Shown here piece after piece: positions 5,292 to 14,862 of a DNA stretch of 64,000 nucleotides; positions within the stretch are counted from its first letter, which is position 1, and each line of letters opens with the position of its first letter. The position numbers and the translations under genes were made by a program. The DNA comes from a virus. The notes under the pieces are model-generated. The model was not told the DNA's origin. It saw nothing but the letters and a program-made list of their open reading frames with translations, and did not search any database. The stretch covers positions 1 to 64,000 of the IMG/VR virus record IMGVR_UViG_3300028563_000021, one strand, 5' to 3'.

Positions 5292-5485
5292 GCGAATTCA
5301 TAATAGAAGAACGCTCCGCACGTCAGGCGTGGGCGAAGTCTGCCGCTAAGCATCATAGTTGGCCCGATGACTCACTCCCCGAACAAAATGACAGTGGGCG
5401 CTTTTCTTGTGGCTGGCATGAGTCAGAGTTTCAAATTTTTTACGCTGGCGTGAAATATGCTCTAAGCAAAGTGAAAACGTCATGA
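5288..5485 (+). CDS. Transposon passenger protein 2
   Basis: 65 residues, MSEFIIEERSARQAWAKSAA..., overlapping both neighbours by ATGA. Contains the acidic/aromatic stretch SGRFSCGWHESEFQIFYAG. Overlapping starts with the transposase suggest coupled translation. Function unknown; not shared with the second element. Confidence 0.6.
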   Translation: MSEFIIEERSARQAWAKSAAKHHSWPDDSLPEQNDSGRFSCGWHESEFQIFYAGVKYALSKVKTS

Positions 5486-6423
5486 ACGACAAACTCACAA
5501 TCAGCACTTTTGAGTTATTCAAGATGTTCCCGGATCAAGAATCGGCGCGGTTATATCTCGAAAAACGCCTTTGGCCTGAAGGTTGCCGTTGCCCAGTCTG
5601 CGGCATTGGCGACCGAGTGACGGCGCGCAAAAACGGTTTCTATCGCTGCAACCAGTGTAAGGAAGATTTCACGGTGCGCACTGGCACGATCTTTGAGCGG
5701 TCACATGTTCCTCTGCACAAATGGCTGTATGCCATGTACATGCTAGTAACGGCGCGCAAGGGCATTTCCTCATTGCAGTTAAGCAAGGAAATCGACGTTA
5801 CGCAAAAATCTGCGTGGTTCATGTTGCAAAGGCTCCGCGAAGCCTGCGGCAATGATCCTACGATTTTGAGCGGCGTTGTCGAGGTCGATGAAACGTATAT
5901 CGGCGGCAAAGAATCAGCCAAGCACGAATCGAAAAAGCTCAATGCTGGGCGTGGGGCGGTCGGCAAGACTGCCGTTATGGGCATGCGTGAGCGCGGCGGT
6001 AGAGTCAATGCCGTTGTCCTGAATGGCACAACTTCAACCGAAATGCTAGGCCACATCTTCACCAATGTGCAGGCCGGCTCAACTGTTTGCACCGACGAAC
6101 ATTCGTCATATCAAGCATTGCCGCCGCTTGGCCTGCCGCTTGATATTCCCGCTTACGACCATCAAACGGTCAATCACAGTGCGAAAGAGTACGTCAACGG
6201 AATGGCGCACACCAACGGCATTGAGAGCGTGTGGGCCGTTCTGAAGCGCGGTCTGCACGGTGTTTATCATCACGCCAGCCCGAAGCACATCGGACGCTAT
6301 GTCAATGAATTTGCGTTCAGGCTGAATGACGGCAACGTGAAGCGGTTGACGCTCGCTCGGATGGATAGTTTCATCAAAGCATGTTCCGGTTGCCGCATTA
6401 CATACAAGGAGTTGATAGCATGA
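5482..6423 (+). CDS. ISXO2/IS1595-family transposase
   Basis: 313 residues. An N-terminal zinc ribbon (C37, C40, C56, C59; CPVC and CNQC) is followed by an RNase H-like transposase domain with acidic motifs VDETYIGG, TDEHSSYQAL and TNGIESVW, as in ISXO2-type DDE transposases. Length and domain order are normal for the family, so the protein should be active. It catalyses cut-and-paste movement of DNA bounded by the GGGAATTATAT inverted repeats, and could mobilise the transposase-less element at 9643-10378 in trans. Confidence 0.92.
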   Translation: MNDKLTISTFELFKMFPDQESARLYLEKRLWPEGCRCPVCGIGDRVTARKNGFYRCNQCKEDFTVRTGTIFERSHVPLHKWLYAMYMLVTARKGISSLQLSKEIDVTQKSAWFMLQRLREACGNDPTILSGVVEVDETYIGGKESAKHESKKLNAGRGAVGKTAVMGMRERGGRVNAVVLNGTTSTEMLGHIFTNVQAGSTVCTDEHSSYQALPPLGLPLDIPAYDHQTVNHSAKEYVNGMAHTNGIESVWAVLKRGLHGVYHHASPKHIGRYVNEFAFRLNDGNVKRLTLARMDSFIKACSGCRITYKELIA

Positions 6424-6557
6424 AAGAACCAAAAGCTCCGCCAGCACTTGACCTGATTGCAGATAAGGTGCTGGCATTTCGTCCCAAACCAAAGAGCGAA
6501 CCAGCCAAAAAACGTGCAAAAGCGCGTAAGAAATTGGATAGGGAATCAAAGATATAA
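6420..6557 (+). CDS. Small basic protein of the transposon
   Basis: 45 residues (MKEPKAPPALDLIADKVLAF...), starting within the transposase stop (ATGA). Lysine/arginine-rich C-terminus KKRAKARKKLDRESKI is encoded partly by the right inverted repeat. Its last nine codons are retained, fused to the transposase N-terminus, in the second element. Possibly an accessory DNA-binding factor; unproven. Confidence 0.6.
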   Translation: MKEPKAPPALDLIADKVLAFRPKPKSEPAKKRAKARKKLDRESKI

Positions 6558-6576: not shown

Positions 6577-6639
6577 TCATTTCTTTACGTTGTCGCGCGC
6601 AAGCTGGCGGCGTTGCTCTCTAGATGTCTGGATGGTCAT
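6577..6639 (-). CDS. Possible very short or truncated protein
   Basis: A 20-codon frame MTIQTSREQRRQLARDNVKK starts inside the stop of the DUF1367-like gene (TAATG) and ends just before the transposon target duplication. Start context is good but the product is far shorter than phage proteins that begin this way, so it may be a remnant. Confidence 0.3.
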   Translation of the reverse strand: MTIQTSREQRRQLARDNVKK

Positions 6640-7163
6640 TATTGCCTCTCAAATTGAGCCAAAATACTTTCCATTGACGCCTGCGCCACAATGGGAGAAG
6701 CCGCTGGCCAGAGGTACTTTTGCGCGTGCGGTGTCCGCAGAAATTCGAGAACGCCGTCGCGGTAAATGCTGAAATCGCCTTCGTCGCACTTGGCAAAGCT
6801 GATGCTTTTTGGTACCGGGAAGACACCGCCCTTTGGCCCTTGCGCCCAGAATATCCAGCCTGATCCCACCTTAAGCCACAAGCGGAAGGCTTCTCGATCC
6901 TTGATGCGCTCTTGATTCTTGAAGATTTCGCCTTCAAGCTTCATTTGCTTTTTGTGAATCGGCAGATAGCGCGGGATCAGCGTGGCGATCGAAAAGAATT
7001 CGCCGCTTCCCATGCGCCAGATCGTGTTCCAGAATCTACGCCAGGCTTTTTTATCTTCCTCTGCTTGGCCGTCGATCAATCCGAACAGGCAATCGCGTAG
7101 CACTTCGCGCTGATGCTCGGTAAGTTCTATATCTGACTGCTTGCATAGAAGCATTTCGCTCAT
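6639..7163 (-). CDS. DUF1367-like phage protein
   Basis: 174 residues. The stretch VPKSISFAKCDEGDFSIYRD and the preceding region with KKAWRRFWNTIW match the pattern of DUF1367 proteins, found in the recombination or nin-type regions of lambdoid phages. Biochemical role unknown. Start overlaps the stop of the upstream gene by ATGA; it is the last full gene of the leftward operon from the repressor at 8958. Confidence 0.65.
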   Translation of the reverse strand: MSEMLLCKQSDIELTEHQREVLRDCLFGLIDGQAEEDKKAWRRFWNTIWRMGSGEFFSIATLIPRYLPIHKKQMKLEGEIFKNQERIKDREAFRLWLKVGSGWIFWAQGPKGGVFPVPKSISFAKCDEGDFSIYRDGVLEFLRTPHAQKYLWPAASPIVAQASMESILAQFERQ

Positions 7164-8754: not shown

Positions 8755-8958
8755 TCATTTCCTAACTTTTGGCTTTTTGCAAATCTTTTTATGCAGCTTA
8801 AGCAGGCGATTGCCTAATTTCATTGTCGGGCGTTCGCCACGGTCGCCTCGAACAAATTTGCTTATAGTAGCTTGGTTGCACGGTACCTTATCAGCAAGTT
8901 CCTGCTGAGTTAATCCGGTAGCCAGCATTTCCGCGACAATTTGATTTATATTTTCCAT
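8755..8958 (-). CDS. XRE-family HTH repressor
   Basis: 67 residues from ATG 8958 (MENINQIVAEMLATGLTQQE). Classical lambda-repressor-type HTH: LTQQELADKVPCNQATISKFVRG. No C-terminal cleavage domain, so induction would not be by RecA-type self-cleavage. An in-frame ATG at 8976 is possible. Divergent from the strong promoter at 9048 that starts locus B, the position expected of the phage's main switch repressor. Confidence 0.75.
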   Translation of the reverse strand: MENINQIVAEMLATGLTQQELADKVPCNQATISKFVRGDRGERPTMKLGNRLLKLHKKICKKPKVRK

Positions 8959-8976
8959 GTGCGAATAATTGCACAT
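8957..8976. promoter_or_regulatory. Candidate repressor operator
   Basis: ATGTGC (8957-8962) and GCACAT (8971-8976) form a six-base inverted repeat with an eight-base A/T-rich centre, at the start codons of the HTH repressor. Suitable as an autoregulatory dimer site. Based on symmetry only. Confidence 0.4.
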
Positions 8977-9047: not shown

Positions 9048-9077
9048 TTGCAAAGTTCAAACCATACGGCATAATAC
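9048..9077 (+). promoter_or_regulatory. Rightward early promoter
   Basis: TTGCAA (9048-9053), 18-base spacer, TAATAC (9072-9077), divergent from the repressor gene. Transcription should begin near 9084 and read the structured RNA and, through the inserted transposon, the recombination operon. Confidence 0.7.
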
Positions 9078-9083
9078 ACTCAC

Positions 9084-9634
9084 ATTGCAGCACAAACGAA
9101 GCACTGCCGCCATTCGCAAGAGTGGTAACAAAGCAAGTGCGTCCAAGCTAAGCCGTTTGGGCCTCGAATGAGAGGTGAGAAGTTGAACGAATCTGGATGT
9201 CGCGACCAGACACTTGCTTTGTTTATGATCCACGGCCATGTCGTACCGAGAGCGTAGGCCACGCTTGCCGCCGAGACTCGCTGAGGAAAGAGACAACACG
9301 TTAGAAATGACCTCCGCACGATAGACGGAGGGCCAACAGGAAAGAGGGGGCAATGAAAAAAGGTCTTCCTGAATTGCGCGCAGTACCGAACGACCGAGAG
9401 GGCGCAAATTGAAAAGGGTGAAATCCTCTTTTTCCTGTTGGCGGTCGCATGACTGGATTTGCAAGGATAGTATCCGCGCCGTTAAAAGTTCGTTTCATGG
9501 CTGTATGCCTACTATAAACGTTCAGTACGTAGCAATGAAGGTAGCCCGGCCATCAACACGCGGGGAATGTCGATGATAGTTCCGCGTAAAGACACAGATC
9601 GACCGCTAATACCGGCCCGCGCAGATGGCCGGAC
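9084..9634 (+). ncRNA. Large structured RNA, locus B
   Basis: About 550 bases with no credible gene but many exact pairings: a 13-bp stem AACAAAGCAAGTG (9127-9139) with 9211-9223; CCTCCG/CGGAGG (9311-9316/9326-9331); a long stem 9333-9347 with 9425-9441, enclosing TTGCGC/GCGCAA (9374-9379/9402-9407); and a closing stem CCGGCCATC/GATGGCCGG (9546-9554/9624-9632). Inside the last, ACGCGG/CCGCGT (9558-9563/9582-9587) interlocks with GTCGAT/ATCGAC (9569-9574/9598-9603), an H-type pseudoknot. Size, promoter and structure suggest either a large phage RNA in the style of GOLLD/ROOL or an antitermination leader. Class unassigned. Confidence 0.65.
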
Positions 9635-9664
9635 CAATTTAAGGGAATTATATACTTAAGTCCC

Positions 9665-9693
9665 TTGACATCCATTAGGGAGTCATCTACTAT
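9665..9693 (+). promoter_or_regulatory. Promoter of the non-autonomous element
   Basis: TTGACA (9665-9670), 17-base spacer, TACTAT (9688-9693). The spacer shares AGGGAGTCATC with the promoter of the complete element, so promoter and left end have been kept as a unit. Confidence 0.8.
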
Positions 9694-10274: not shown

Positions 10275-10373
10275 ATGAACGATAAGCTCACCATCAGCAC
10301 TTTCGAGCTATTCAAGATGTTTCCAGACCAGCAATCAGCGCGTAAGAAATTGGCTAGGGAATCAAAGATATAA
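10275..10373 (+). pseudogene. Transposase remnant fused in frame to transposon tail gene
   Basis: 32 codons: MNDKLTISTFELFKMFPDQ matches the first 19 residues of the complete transposase, then QSAR joins KKLARESKI, the end of the small basic protein. The junction lies in a short GCGCG identity shared by the two parent positions, indicating microhomology-type deletion of about 1 kb. Confidence 0.85.
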
Positions 10374-10744: not shown

Positions 10745-10760
10745 ATAAATGGAGAATCAA

Positions 10761-11558
10761 ATGGGCAATGAATTATCAACTTTTACCCTTGAGCCGCGCA
10801 GTTTGGCCGAGGCAATGGAATACGCCAAAATCATCGCGTCCAGCGACATGGTGCCGAAGGATTATATCAACAAGCCCGGTAACGTTCTCGTTGCTGTGCA
10901 GACTGGCGCAGAGCTTGGACTGAAGCCTATGCAGTCTCTTCAGGGTATCGCGGTAATCAATGGCCGTCCGACGATCTGGGGCGATGCCCAATGGGCACTC
11001 GTGGCCGGTCATCCTGACTTCGAATATTCGAAAGATGACTTGACCGACACAAAGGCGACGGTATGGCTCAAACGTCGCAACCAGCCAGAAATAATGCGTT
11101 CGTTTTCAATTGATGACGCGAAAAAGGCCGGGCTTGCAGGAAAGTCTGGGCCGTGGTCAACAAATCCAAAACGCATGATGCACATGCGCGCTCGTGCGTT
11201 CGCTTCGCGTGACCTGTTCCCTGATGCACTCAAAGGCATTAAGTCAGTCGAGGAAGTTCGCGACTACGGGCCAGAATGTCAAACCGAAATCGATATCACG
11301 CCAAAGTCCGAAACAAAAGCGGAAATCAAAGGCCCGGAATTTCTGACCAGCGAAAAATTTGAAGCCAACAAAGAAGCATGGCGCAAGTTGATCGACACGA
11401 AGAAAAAAACGGTCGATACGCTGATTGCGTTCCTTGATTCGAAAGCGCCGCTGACTGAGTCGCAGAAATCTGAAATCAAATCATGGGAAGTAATGCCAGT
11501 GCAGACAGAGGTCGTTGATGACTTCAATGCCGGCCTTGATTCCTACGTTCCAGAATAG
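10761..11558 (+). CDS. RecT-family single-strand annealing protein
   Basis: About 265 residues. Conserved RecT features: LMVAVQTG-like segment NVLVAVQTGAELGLKPMQSL, the block AVINGRPTIWGDAQWALV, and GPWSTNPKRMMHMRARAFA. Such proteins bind single-stranded DNA and anneal complementary strands with a partner exonuclease, here the next gene. ATG 10761 is favoured by GGAG six bases upstream; ATG 10749 would add four residues. Confidence 0.88.
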   Translation: MGNELSTFTLEPRSLAEAMEYAKIIASSDMVPKDYINKPGNVLVAVQTGAELGLKPMQSLQGIAVINGRPTIWGDAQWALVAGHPDFEYSKDDLTDTKATVWLKRRNQPEIMRSFSIDDAKKAGLAGKSGPWSTNPKRMMHMRARAFASRDLFPDALKGIKSVEEVRDYGPECQTEIDITPKSETKAEIKGPEFLTSEKFEANKEAWRKLIDTKKKTVDTLIAFLDSKAPLTESQKSEIKSWEVMPVQTEVVDDFNAGLDSYVPE

Positions 11559-11571
11559 GGAGGAAAATATC

Positions 11572-13377
11572 ATGCAAGTTATACCAGTATCGCAGGGATC
11601 AAGCGAGTGGCTAGCTGTTCGCGCAACGCATCTGTGTGCCAGTGAAGCGGCGGCAATGCTCGGTTTCGACAAGGCGACGACGCGGACGCAATTGCTTCAA
11701 TTGAAGCACACCGGACTCGGCAAAGAGTTCTCCGAGTGGGTTCAAACCAATCTGCTTGATAAGGGCCACGAAATAGAAGCGGCAACGCGCCCAATCGGAG
11801 AGGAAATAATAGGGGAAGAGCTTTACCCGTGCATCGGAACTATTGAGGTTGACGGCCTTCGTTTGCTCGCCAGCTTCGACGGCATGACGATGTGCGAAGA
11901 CGTTGTTTGGGAATGCAAAAGCCGCAATGCTTCGTTGATAGCGGCAATGGCGGACGGCGATTTGCCGGATACGCATTGGCCGCAGGTCGAGCAGCAATTA
12001 ATGATTAGCAACGCGGATAAAGCGCTCTTCACTTGCGGCGATGGCACAGCGGAGCACACTGATCACCTATGGTATCAGTCGCGTCCAGAGCGTCGCGCAA
12101 AGATCGTCGCAGGGTGGCATCAATTTGCCAAGGATTTGGCAAATTACAAGCAGGTCGAAATCGTTGAAAAGCCAAAGGCTGAAGCGATCATGCAACTGCC
12201 TGCGGTGGTAATCAATGTGCACGGTGAACTCGCGCTTTGCAACCTTGGAGACGTCACGCCAAAATTTGACGCTTTTTTGTCCGGCGCAAATATTGATCTG
12301 AAGACTGACGACGATTTTGCAAACGGCGAAGCAACGGCAAGATTCAGTCGCTCCACTGCGAAGACGCTCAAGCTCAAGGCTAAAGAGGTAATTGGTCAAA
12401 TCGCAACCGTAAGCGAGGCCGTCTGTACCTTGGAACTGTATGCGGATAAGTTTGATGCGCTCGGCCTGAAGCTCGAAAAAGCTGTGACGGGCCAGAAAGA
12501 GACCATCAAGACCAACATATTGAACGCGGCAAAATTGGCATTCACTGAACACGTCGCGAGCCTGGAAGCGGAAATCAAACCAATCCGTTTAGTGCACGCT
12601 CAACCGGATTTCGTTGGCGCGATGAAAAACAAGCGCACGCTGGCCAGCCTGCACGATGCCGTCGATACTGAGCTGGCCAATGCCAAGATCAACACCGACG
12701 CTATCGCTAAGGGCGTTAGAACGCGGATGGGCTGGTGTAAGACGAATGCCGAAGGCTTTGGCTTCTTGTTTGCCGATCTGCAAAGCATCATCTACAAGGC
12801 CGATGACGACTTCCATCTGATTGTGACGACTCGCGTCGATGCGCACAAAAAGGCGGAAACCGACAAGATCGAGGCAGAGCGCGCGAAGATTCGGGCCGAC
12901 GAGGAAGCCAAGGCGACCGCCAAAGCTGCAGAGGACACCCGCCGTCAAGTGGCCGAAGCGCAGGCCAAGGCGGAGGCAGAAGCAAAGGAAAAGGCTGACG
13001 CTGATGCGAAGGTTTTGCGGGAAGCGGAGCAAGCGCACGCAGCCGCACCAGTCCAGGCACCAGCGCAAGAAAGTATTGCTCCTGCAATAGCTGCCACGCC
13101 TCCGCCTGTCCGCGCTCCGGAATCGTATCAGTTCCCGGCGCGGTCAACGGAATCTAGCCACACATCAGCCGAATCTTCGGTATTGGTCAACCTCGGCAGC
13201 ATCAACGCCGCCCTTGGCTTCACGGTGACGGCTGACTTTCTTGGGCGTCTTGGCTTTGACGCCGTACAACAAAAGAACGCGAAATTGTATCGCGACTCTG
13301 ATTTTCAACGAATCTGTGCCGCGATCGTGCGTCACGTTCAAATCGCTGCAGCTACGCCATTGAAGTCCGCAGCTTAA
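11572..13377 (+). CDS. YqaJ-like recombination exonuclease with C-terminal extension
   Basis: 601 residues from ATG 11572, with GGGAGG upstream. Residues 1-210 are a YqaJ/lambda-exonuclease-type nuclease: SSEWLAVRATHLCASEAAAM at the N-terminus, catalytic D103 (SFDG) and ECK (114-116). Residues 260-430 resemble DUF1351, residues 430-520 are a highly charged coiled coil rich in KAEAE, and the last 70 form a small globular region. It should resect double-stranded ends to load the RecT-like protein. The fused tail makes it more than twice the length of a plain YqaJ enzyme. Confidence 0.85.
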   Translation: MQVIPVSQGSSEWLAVRATHLCASEAAAMLGFDKATTRTQLLQLKHTGLGKEFSEWVQTNLLDKGHEIEAATRPIGEEIIGEELYPCIGTIEVDGLRLLASFDGMTMCEDVVWECKSRNASLIAAMADGDLPDTHWPQVEQQLMISNADKALFTCGDGTAEHTDHLWYQSRPERRAKIVAGWHQFAKDLANYKQVEIVEKPKAEAIMQLPAVVINVHGELALCNLGDVTPKFDAFLSGANIDLKTDDDFANGEATARFSRSTAKTLKLKAKEVIGQIATVSEAVCTLELYADKFDALGLKLEKAVTGQKETIKTNILNAAKLAFTEHVASLEAEIKPIRLVHAQPDFVGAMKNKRTLASLHDAVDTELANAKINTDAIAKGVRTRMGWCKTNAEGFGFLFADLQSIIYKADDDFHLIVTTRVDAHKKAETDKIEAERAKIRADEEAKATAKAAEDTRRQVAEAQAKAEAEAKEKADADAKVLREAEQAHAAAPVQAPAQESIAPAIAATPPPVRAPESYQFPARSTESSHTSAESSVLVNLGSINAALGFTVTADFLGRLGFDAVQQKNAKLYRDSDFQRICAAIVRHVQIAAATPLKSAA

Positions 13378-13404
13378 CCATCACCAAAACCACAGGAGAT
13401 TCAC

Positions 13405-13674
13405 ATGGACCACGAAATCAAAGAACGCCAGACTATCGCAATGGATGCCGTAGTCAGCAGTCAAATCCATAGCATCGGCCACGACCCCAAAACCAATACC
13501 CTGGCGATACAATTCCCCGAACGCAAGGATGGCAGCCAGGGATCGCTTTATCACTATGCGAATTTCTCGGTCGAGGAGTTCGACAAGTTCAAAAGCGCGG
13601 AATCGACCGGATCGCATTTCATCCACCACATCAAGAAATTTCCCGATCGTTTCCCCTACACGAAGATCGGCTAA
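13405..13674 (+). CDS. KTSC-domain protein
   Basis: 89 residues; SSQIHSIGHDPKTNTLAIQF, YHYANFSVEEF and GSHFIHHIKKF fit the KTSC domain, found in phages and often fused to other domains; role unknown. Start ATG 13405 follows CAGGAGA. Part of the recombination operon. Confidence 0.7.
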   Translation: MDHEIKERQTIAMDAVVSSQIHSIGHDPKTNTLAIQFPERKDGSQGSLYHYANFSVEEFDKFKSAESTGSHFIHHIKKFPDRFPYTKIG

Positions 13675-13715
13675 TCGGCCGTATTGAATAACCCCGCAAC
13701 AACATAGGAGCAGTC

Positions 13716-14057
13716 ATGGGAATACGATTATTTACAGACGTCATGCGCGATTTGCGATTTGGCGAAACGCTCGACGAAATCAGCTTGGAATTTAACAAAC
13801 TGGTGACCGCAGTCGAGAGCACCGGCAAAGCTGGCGAAATGACGTTCAAGGTCAAGGTCAAGCCGTCCGCTGCTGGCGCAATTGAAGTCATTGACGAAAT
13901 CAAGACCAAGTTGCCACAACTCGCGAAAGGAACATCACTGTTTTTCGCAACACCGGAAGGCAATCTGGTCCGCAATAACCCACGGCAGGATGAATTGCCG
14001 GGCCTGAAAGAAGTAGCAGCAAACACCAAGCCACTAAAGGAAATCAAGAATGGATAA
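13716..14057 (+). CDS. Hypothetical phage protein
   Basis: 113 residues starting MGIRLFTDVMRDLRFGETLD; a short helical N-terminus then beta-strands (GEMTFKVKVKPSAAGAIEVI). Commonly sits beside DUF2303 genes in phages, as here, where it overlaps the next start. Function unknown. Confidence 0.65.
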   Translation: MGIRLFTDVMRDLRFGETLDEISLEFNKLVTAVESTGKAGEMTFKVKVKPSAAGAIEVIDEIKTKLPQLAKGTSLFFATPEGNLVRNNPRQDELPGLKEVAANTKPLKEIKNG

Positions 14058-14862
14058 CCACAATGCCGACACGGTGCGCGATCTTGCGGCCTGTTTAGCT
14101 CAAATCCGTAGCGTAGGCGTCGATGATAGTCCGTTCATCGTTTTGCCGGAAGGATATCAAGTCCACGACCTCGAAAAGACGCTCGAAATGCCGATCCGCA
14201 AGCGCGGCACGGTGACAATGAATGATGCAATAAGCTTCGTTGATTACTTCAAGCTACACCAAGCCGCTAGCCGGATTTACGGCCAAGTCGAACCACCGAA
14301 ATTCATTGCGGTATTAAACGACAACCGCAAGGACGAGGCTGGCTGGCGCGATCATCGTGTCGTCTACAACTGCCCGTTTTCCAAAGAATGGGTTACATGG
14401 AAGCAGTTTGCGGGACAGCCTCGCGACCAAATCGCCTTTTCCGAGTTCATGGAATCGAACACGCCGGACATTATCAGCAGCGCCGCCGACGAACCAAGCG
14501 GCGCGGTAATGCTGGAAGTCGCGACCAGTTTCAAGGCACAAAAGAAGGTCAACTTCGCCAGCGGACAACGCCTCGATAACGGACAGGTCGATTTTACTTT
14601 TCAGGAAGAAATTCAGGGCAGTGCTGGCGCGAAAGGTCATATCAAAGTGCCGGAACGGTTCTGGATCGGAATTCCGGTATTCGAAGGCGGCGCTCCATAC
14701 CGCATCGAGTGCAAGCTACGCTATCGGCTCAAGGATGGCGGTCTGTCGATGTGGTTCGATCTGGTACGTGATCACAAAGTGCTGGAGGCGGCTTTCATGG
14801 ACATCTGGAAAGAAATCACTGACGGTACGCAGACAACCATCTGGCGCGGCACGCCAGCGTAA
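14050..14862 (+). CDS. DUF2303 family protein
   Basis: 270 residues. Segments FIVLPEGYQVHDLEKTLEMP and FVDYFKLHQAASRIYGQ, then PEWVTWK-like KEWVTWKQFAGQ, fit DUF2303, a family of phage proteins of unknown activity near recombination genes. Start overlaps the previous gene by eight bases. Confidence 0.75.
   Translation: MDNHNADTVRDLAACLAQIRSVGVDDSPFIVLPEGYQVHDLEKTLEMPIRKRGTVTMNDAISFVDYFKLHQAASRIYGQVEPPKFIAVLNDNRKDEAGWRDHRVVYNCPFSKEWVTWKQFAGQPRDQIAFSEFMESNTPDIISSAADEPSGAVMLEVATSFKAQKKVNFASGQRLDNGQVDFTFQEEIQGSAGAKGHIKVPERFWIGIPVFEGGAPYRIECKLRYRLKDGGLSMWFDLVRDHKVLEAAFMDIWKEITDGTQTTIWRGTPA

Follow-up and report, generated by a model that had tools for sequence, protein, structure and literature searches.

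Does a long non-coding stretch of phage DNA, lying opposite a repressor-like gene, give rise to a large structured RNA, and if so to which class would that RNA belong and how might it act? The question is raised by positions 9084 to 9634, plus strand and with approximate ends, of a window of 64,000 nucleotides, the whole stretch of DNA analysed here, which is positions 1 to 64,000 of IMG/VR virus record IMGVR_UViG_3300028563_000021. Folding energy, exact stems, homologues and covariation identify a large modular structured RNA at this position, almost certainly representing a new class of large modular phage RNA. The kind, that of the large ornate phage RNAs, is known; the class appears to be new and to stand outside Rfam 15.

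The locus and its predicted fold

Only antisense or short open reading frames cover 9084-9634 and none is a convincing coding gene, in agreement with the initial annotation, which had claimed about 550 non-coding bases. Opposite the RNA, on the minus strand, is a helix-turn-helix repressor-like gene (8755-8976; PHROG 6831, phrog_6831, E 3.2e-16), and the rightward genes beyond the RNA include RecT-like (10749-11558) and RecE-like (11515-13377) genes. The plus strand carries a promoter-like site before the RNA, TTGCAA-16-CATAAT at 9048-9075, with 9 of 12 consensus matches, and the flank holding this site is similar in locus L007 (a short match, with the hexamers compared by eye). A second plus-strand site, TTGACA-17-TACTAT at 9665-9693, lies directly after the RNA, between it and the first rightward gene, and is the better match (10/12). 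The promoter scan overall was not above chance (five sites found, 5.3 expected), so that of the good promoter opposite the repressor that had been claimed, the repressor stands and the promoter is the weakest element. AAGGGA/TCCCTT repeats, which may be operators, surround the second promoter-like site (9632-9693). Elsewhere in the window a transposase gene of 313 amino acids, which we take to be IS1595-like, occupies 5482-6557; a short frame downstream of the RNA (10275-10373) has the same first residues and the same last residues (RESKI) as the end of this element and looks like an internally deleted, MITE-like copy of it. No tRNA genes were found in the window.

Among pairs no more than 200 nt apart, exact stems of 13 bp (9127-9139/9211-9223), 12 bp (9332-9343/9431-9442) and 9 bp (9546-9554/9624-9632) are present. 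In 300 dinucleotide shuffles the longest stem averaged 7.7 bp and none reached 13 bp, while stems of at least 9 bp, of which three are observed, averaged 0.21. Stems of 13, 11 and 9 exact pairs had been described beforehand; the first and last are as stated and the middle one has 12 pairs. The folding energy of 9080-9680 corresponds to a z of -3.3, with none of 20 shuffles as low. Several elements are predicted from the single sequence of the window, namely a hairpin, CCAUUC-GCAA-GAGUGG (9110-9125), the first long-stem module that follows it (9127-9223), closed by the exact 13-bp stem and for which a homologue was not found, and the 9-bp stem (9546-9632), which encloses the pseudoknot described below and takes part of strand C. 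A further hairpin, CCUCCG/CGGAGG, lies directly before the core module (9311-9331); read by eye, all eight core loci differ in sequence here yet are self-complementary. All these elements are on the plus strand.

Modules shared with other phages

The core module (9333-9441, plus strand) is 109 nt long and is found, with covariation, at eight distinct loci. It comprises a 17-pair closing stem (9333-9349/9425-9441), inner helices and the helix P2 (9374-9379/9402-9407), which is capped by a CC-GAGA-GG tetraloop at 9394-9401. Blastn against phages gave a single match, to Aeromonas phage ST4 (E 1e-22, with 83.9% identity over 110 bases). It falls in unannotated DNA, with three tRNA genes downstream; the annotation of ST4 places a hypothetical frame of 47 aa, ST4_093, within the RNA stretch, ahead of the core. 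Pattern scans added six distinct loci, L003 (Pseudomethylobacillus aquaticus), L006, L007, L011, L014 and L017 (a Gallionella MAG), which with the window and ST4 form the set of eight; L018 was dropped, being the same place as L003. Rejected as not homologous to the core were L004 and L005 (of five pattern-scan loci), L008, L009, L010, L012 and L013 (of eight) and L015 and L016 (of six), and a further scan of 35 loci recovered four known homologues and no new one.

In the alignment of the eight core sequences, which was fitted to model R1 so that the counts lean towards the structure R1 favours, 98.2% of the cells are paired and both sides have changed in 10 of 28 pairs; covariation is 0.302, as against 0.121 in shuffled and at most 0.065 in slid alignments. 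P2 was drawn into R1 by hand. RNAalifold on the MAFFT alignment had missed this helix because its columns are misaligned there, and it is readable by eye in the raw sequences (UUGCGC/GCGCAA, CCACGC/GCGUGG, GCACAC/GUGUGC). Twelve of the 17 closing-stem pairs are invariant, and so the sequence itself must be under selection there. Invariance of the remaining core parts is not an artefact of the search patterns, since L006 and L007 were first found through the 3' arm alone and L011 and L014 through the apical loop alone. The window RNA has the core with both closing stem and P2; the window belongs to the training set of R1, its homology having first been seen by blastn. Outside the training set, R1 gave only weak matches in 50 sources (best L084 at 32 bits, and Leclercia at 27 bits), and over 300 genomes of one order it found only the genome on which it was centred. 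In the Gallionella locus there are two copies of the pseudoknot module and, scoring 15.1 bits, a weak second module like the core (5772-5838, 6393-6494 and 6603-6669), the modules being duplicated within one predicted RNA.

After the core comes a domain for which two forms can be distinguished. The window has the form that we call type II (9435-9558, plus strand), shared with L199, L206 and L011 and consisting of strand B (about 9435-9444), GCAUGACUGGAU (9447-9458), GAAGGUAGCCCGGCC (9537-9551) and strand C (9550-9558). Two IMG/VR contigs, L199 and L206, match window positions 9446-9603 nearly module for module, in the order GCAUGACUGGAU, GUGAAGGUAGCCCGGCC (AUGAAGG in the window) and then the pseudoknot, and L011 has close forms of both GCAUGACUGGAU and GUGAAGGUAGCCCGGCC. 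Counted by eye, eight of the nine positions of the B-C stem pair in the window. The canonical form is seen at about 100 loci; in ST4 and L017, GAAUGCGCAGGCUGAUGCGC comes next after the core, and after that a second hairpin, which reads GCCGGAGAUCAGCACCGGCC in ST4 and varies from it in L017. These two loci have the canonical kissing loops GGCUGAU and AUCAGC, which are absent from the window, where the type II motifs are found instead.

The canonical B-C closing stem reaches at least 6 bp in 88 of 100 non-redundant loci, as against 14.8 (maximum 22) with shuffled partners, and eight of its nine pairs change on both sides in 27 sequences (from 28 picked for similar length among the roughly 100 loci, L105 being left out for its length). 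The loop-loop complement GCUGA/UCAGC is invariant in the same 27 sequences, so that covariation speaks neither for nor against kissing. An upstream strand, A, is complementary to B in 39 of 90 cases, compared with 18.5 (maximum 28) after shuffling, a moderate enrichment. B has two possible partners, A, with which it would close the core, and C, with which it would close the domain that follows. In IMG/VR the second hairpin was matched in at least 120 stretches. The exact kissing-domain motifs each occur in one of 369 class genomes, and for one of them the reversed control also matched once; the 1405 of 5426 E. coli genomes matched in a further search are not a prevalence because some of the matches are to 16S rRNA. 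At about 627-666 of L135 the variable part of the domain resembles E. coli 16S rRNA (85-87.5% over 40 bases), possibly as an rRNA mimic, possibly by chance.

The interlocking H-type pseudoknot of the initial annotation is borne out at 9559-9603 (plus strand), with stem 1 at 9559-9563/9582-9586 and helix 2 at 9569-9574/9598-9603. Its pattern, CGN-GGGGAA, a loop, AGUUCC and a second CG, with the N paired to its counterpart (CGN-GGGGAA...AGUUCC-N'CG), was found by scans and a script at 38 places in phage contigs. Every one of these has a complementary N pair as well as a loop that pairs, at a nearly constant distance, with a stretch downstream, and 17 different helix sequences are used. All 22 distinct loops pair with their partners; with shuffled partners the mean is 4.1 and the maximum 10. 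In the 13 sequences that share one helix 2 spacing, out of 21 (a choice that did not enter the count of 38), every pair of helix 2 changes on both sides and the covariation is 0.768, against 0.161 shuffled and at most 0.092 slid. Ten of 48 rows, those with no CGN first stem, were not counted (L192, L195, L198, L200, L202, L208, L209, L219, L224 and L226). The pseudoknot is real beyond reasonable doubt. One scan of six loci found it in L050 only, where about 700 non-coding bases of Vibrio phage 1.238 (about 13400-14070) hold the module; this stretch ends in a tRNA-like 3' part, with an acceptor and a T-arm-like element, that ARAGORN does not call, and 42 Vibrio phage records match it in part.

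Covariation in homologues, the lack of which the initial annotation had named as grounds for abandoning the idea, is thus present in both the core and the pseudoknot. It also bears on whether the fold arises by chance or belongs to a DNA element such as an origin or an operator cluster. Inverted repeats occur at origins and operators too, and the RNA does lie in a control region, but RNA is indicated by helices that differ in sequence while keeping their spacing, by G-U pairs, by a GNRA-type tetraloop and by a pseudoknot, and together with the covariation in core, pseudoknot and B-C stem these features make either alternative hardly credible. At the level of sequence comparison, what emerges is a conserved, strand-specific RNA of the plus strand, made of modules that are re-used in different combinations.

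Genomic settings and possible modes of action

As judged from sequence matches, many phages of Gram-negative bacteria share building blocks of this RNA, which have had no name so far, and the class would span lambdoid, lytic and jumbo phages of Proteobacteria. The kissing-hairpin domain, unannotated, is found in all three kinds of phage, both where operons begin and next to tRNAs. When L011 and L017 were used as blastn queries, the same motifs were seen in phiEt88, Escherichia phage HC6, Gamaleyavirus nithesis and Pantoea phage PA-1, with further matches in CcrPW, CcrColossus and a Leclercia plasmid (a phage-plasmid). All seven stretches lie in unannotated or merely hypothetical DNA, and tRNA genes are near six of them, there being none beside the PA-1 stretch. 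Of the second-hairpin stretches listed from IMG/VR, 81 were examined, and 9 of these have a tRNA at most about 1.2 kb upstream or 0.7 kb downstream; tRNAs are close to three of the eight core loci (ST4, L006 and L014).

Some of these phages carry other RNA signatures near the modules. By eye, a tmRNA-like tag frame reading GCA AAC GAU GAU GUU ... GCG GCG UAA lies upstream of the modules in HC6 (L059, about 2290-2330) and nithesis (L063), where Rfam gives only weak permuted or beta tmRNA scores (27-29 and 18-19 bits) and ARAGORN none. Permuted tmRNAs lie between the phage tRNAs of CcrPW (L060, 1193-1608; 90 bits) and CcrColossus (L064, 1171-1464; 84 bits), both above the Rfam cut-off; ARAGORN finds that of CcrPW only, and both are missing from the annotated features shown. 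In PA-1 (L062) an int-alpA RNA, RF02996, follows directly after the kissing domain (2659-2724; 44.4 bits, above cut-off).

Three settings can be recognised. The RNA lies at the start of early operons, between leftward and rightward genes, in the window, L007 and L011; in mEp460 it is found just after the repressor, between the repressor and the left operon, and in E. coli O103 RM8385 between a LexA-family repressor and yfdP. In HK629, CUS-3, phiEt88 and E. coli O19:H7 730V1 it lies between Q and the lysis genes. It also stands alone with tRNAs: in ST4 three tRNAs and an intrinsic terminator come after the core, with no annotated protein gene between, and in HC6 the RNA is followed by tRNA-Ile and a terminator. 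By PHROG assignment, for which there is no control set, holin and endolysin families are among the nearest genes downstream of 70 loci, and repressors, Q-like proteins and HNH endonucleases among those nearest upstream of 77 loci. Downstream of the core, RecT- or Erf-like genes are found in the window, L011, L017 and L006. L065 had been read as carrying putL and putR copies around an immunity region, wrongly, as lysis genes follow its minus copy and an insertion sequence adjoins its plus copy.

Positions of the first two kinds, at the starts of left, right and late operons, are those expected of a cis-acting put-like leader, a folded RNA that binds the transcribing polymerase and lets it pass the terminators of the operon, as the initial annotation had suggested. 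Put sites are short. As with the put RNA of HK022, the RNA of the window would be a structured leader near the immunity region, and a word of 11 nt in its core loop (12 in L011) is also found in the HK022 cro-cII leader, the longest word shared with the other HK022 leader being 7; an 11-nt word was seen in 4 of 1000 core shuffles and 16 of 1000 whole-RNA shuffles, though it was found after looking. The shared 11 nt extend beyond what the two HK022 leaders have in common, however, and the core, kissing-domain and pseudoknot motifs are all absent from the HK022 region with the put sites (the limits of which carry no annotation). In HK629, moreover, a hairpin resembling a terminator (read by eye) separates the annotated pR' from the RNA, which occupies a position where Q already acts. 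A strict intrinsic terminator stands between the RNA and the first gene in 14 of 92 relatives, which a stand-alone RNA fits better than a put-like leader, and in ST4 and HC6 no protein gene separates the core from the terminator. The leader explanation accounts for the positions of the relatives and, on balance, seems fairly unlikely.

The reading that we favour, at a probability of roughly 0.55, is that of a stable folded RNA made in early rightward transcription and acting in trans, perhaps by self-assembly. Its transcription would start early in infection at the site opposite the repressor and run rightward, and the product would act as a stable folded RNA, not as an mRNA or leader only. 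Its loops and exchangeable strands might link copies into a multimeric RNA particle in the manner of GOLLD and ROOL, which is the least certain step, and such a particle could be associated with phage tRNAs or host RNA-binding proteins. Action in trans, on which taken by itself the odds are about even, is suggested by the terminator in the 14 relatives and by the arrangement in ST4 and HC6; self-assembly is favoured because the GCUGA/UCAGC complement and the alternative A-B and B-C pairings could be swapped between copies. Against this, in 78 of the 92 relatives no terminator was recognised, and in the window and many relatives same-strand protein genes follow with none recognised between. The window itself has no tRNA, with tRNAs near only three of the eight core loci, A-B pairing is no more than moderately enriched, and the type II form of the window is devoid of the canonical kissing sequence. 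Going further, it might be imagined that strands (A-B or B-C) and loops swap partners between copies to form particles that hold or protect tRNAs or tmRNA-like RNAs, with the small RNA STnc100 and its kin being pieces of this RNA, an unlikely extension.

Relation to known RNA families

In a cmscan against all of Rfam 15 no family matches the window; at E up to 10 one chance match is seen, and the core relatives give only tRNAs and one chance match. Membership of GOLLD, ROOL or another Rfam class would be in keeping with the size, the phage host, the pseudoknots and the tRNAs beside relatives. Neither the GOLLD (RF02032) nor the ROOL (RF03087) covariance model matched any of 10 records, a result that is weak alone as no positive control matched, and in the whole-Rfam scans the window matched none of GOLLD, ROOL and HEARO (the last presumably RF02033), making membership very improbable. 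The suggestion of a new large ornate phage RNA therefore survives as to kind, the RNA being conserved, covarying, modular and phage-borne with tRNAs near relatives, and, as far as these scans reach, fails as to membership of a known class. No account of the class was found among the papers listed in a literature search, and a text search of papers for the motif strings gave no match, which says only that these strings are not printed there.

The nearest approach to a known family is to STnc100 (RF02076), for which 5 of 19 records score below the cut-off and none above it (best 39.1 bits, against 47). The scores in ST4 (39.1 bits) and the Leclercia phage-plasmid (36.4 bits) fall inside the same non-coding stretch as the modules, and nithesis also has a sub-threshold match. 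Parts of PMC13192938 describe STnc100 and the Pas sRNAs as prophage-encoded and PasD as related to STnc100, and this source and sections of PMC12370729 place STnc100 in prophages or phages. STnc100 primers given in those sections of PMC12370729 share GGTGAAT and CACCGGGAGGC, by eye, with the ends of the Leclercia module. It could then be supposed that the large RNA is a precursor, cut into base-pairing sRNAs such as STnc100 and the E. coli prophage Pas sRNAs that act on mRNAs via Hfq. The window gives no match to the STnc100 model, however, and what is conserved is a structure over hundreds of bases with stems free in sequence and not a short seed, so that a precursor of this type is quite improbable. 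Phage and prophage location and the sub-threshold matches in ST4, Leclercia and nithesis are common ground with STnc100 and PasD, whereas the STnc100 family is about 200 nt long and studied as an sRNA, and by the scans the core and pseudoknot are outside the Rfam family. Annotated prophage sRNAs such as STnc100 and PasD may nonetheless prove to be parts of a larger RNA.

A further large non-coding phage RNA is that of Vibrio phage ICP1, of about 800 nt and, in the portion of PMC7567579 that concerns it, the most abundant ICP1 transcript. It resembles the window RNA in being large, non-coding and phage-encoded; none of the class motifs occurs in ICP1 between ORF139 and ORF140.

Since relatives occur in tractable E. 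coli and Klebsiella phages (HK629, CUS-3, mEp460 and the HC6 group), deletion, expression and structure work on this class should be simple. To our knowledge large ornate RNAs are few, and we know of no function for GOLLD and ROOL. According to passages of PMC12286853, both are large and ornate, encoded by phages or prophages, often near tRNAs, contain pseudoknots and kissing loops, and self-assemble into multimeric RNA particles. Like these, the window RNA is large, ornate and phage-encoded, with pseudoknots and with tRNAs near several of its relatives; unlike them, it shows no detectable sequence-structure similarity to either, and it belongs to a class whose parts are re-used, several copies of them standing at the starts of operons.
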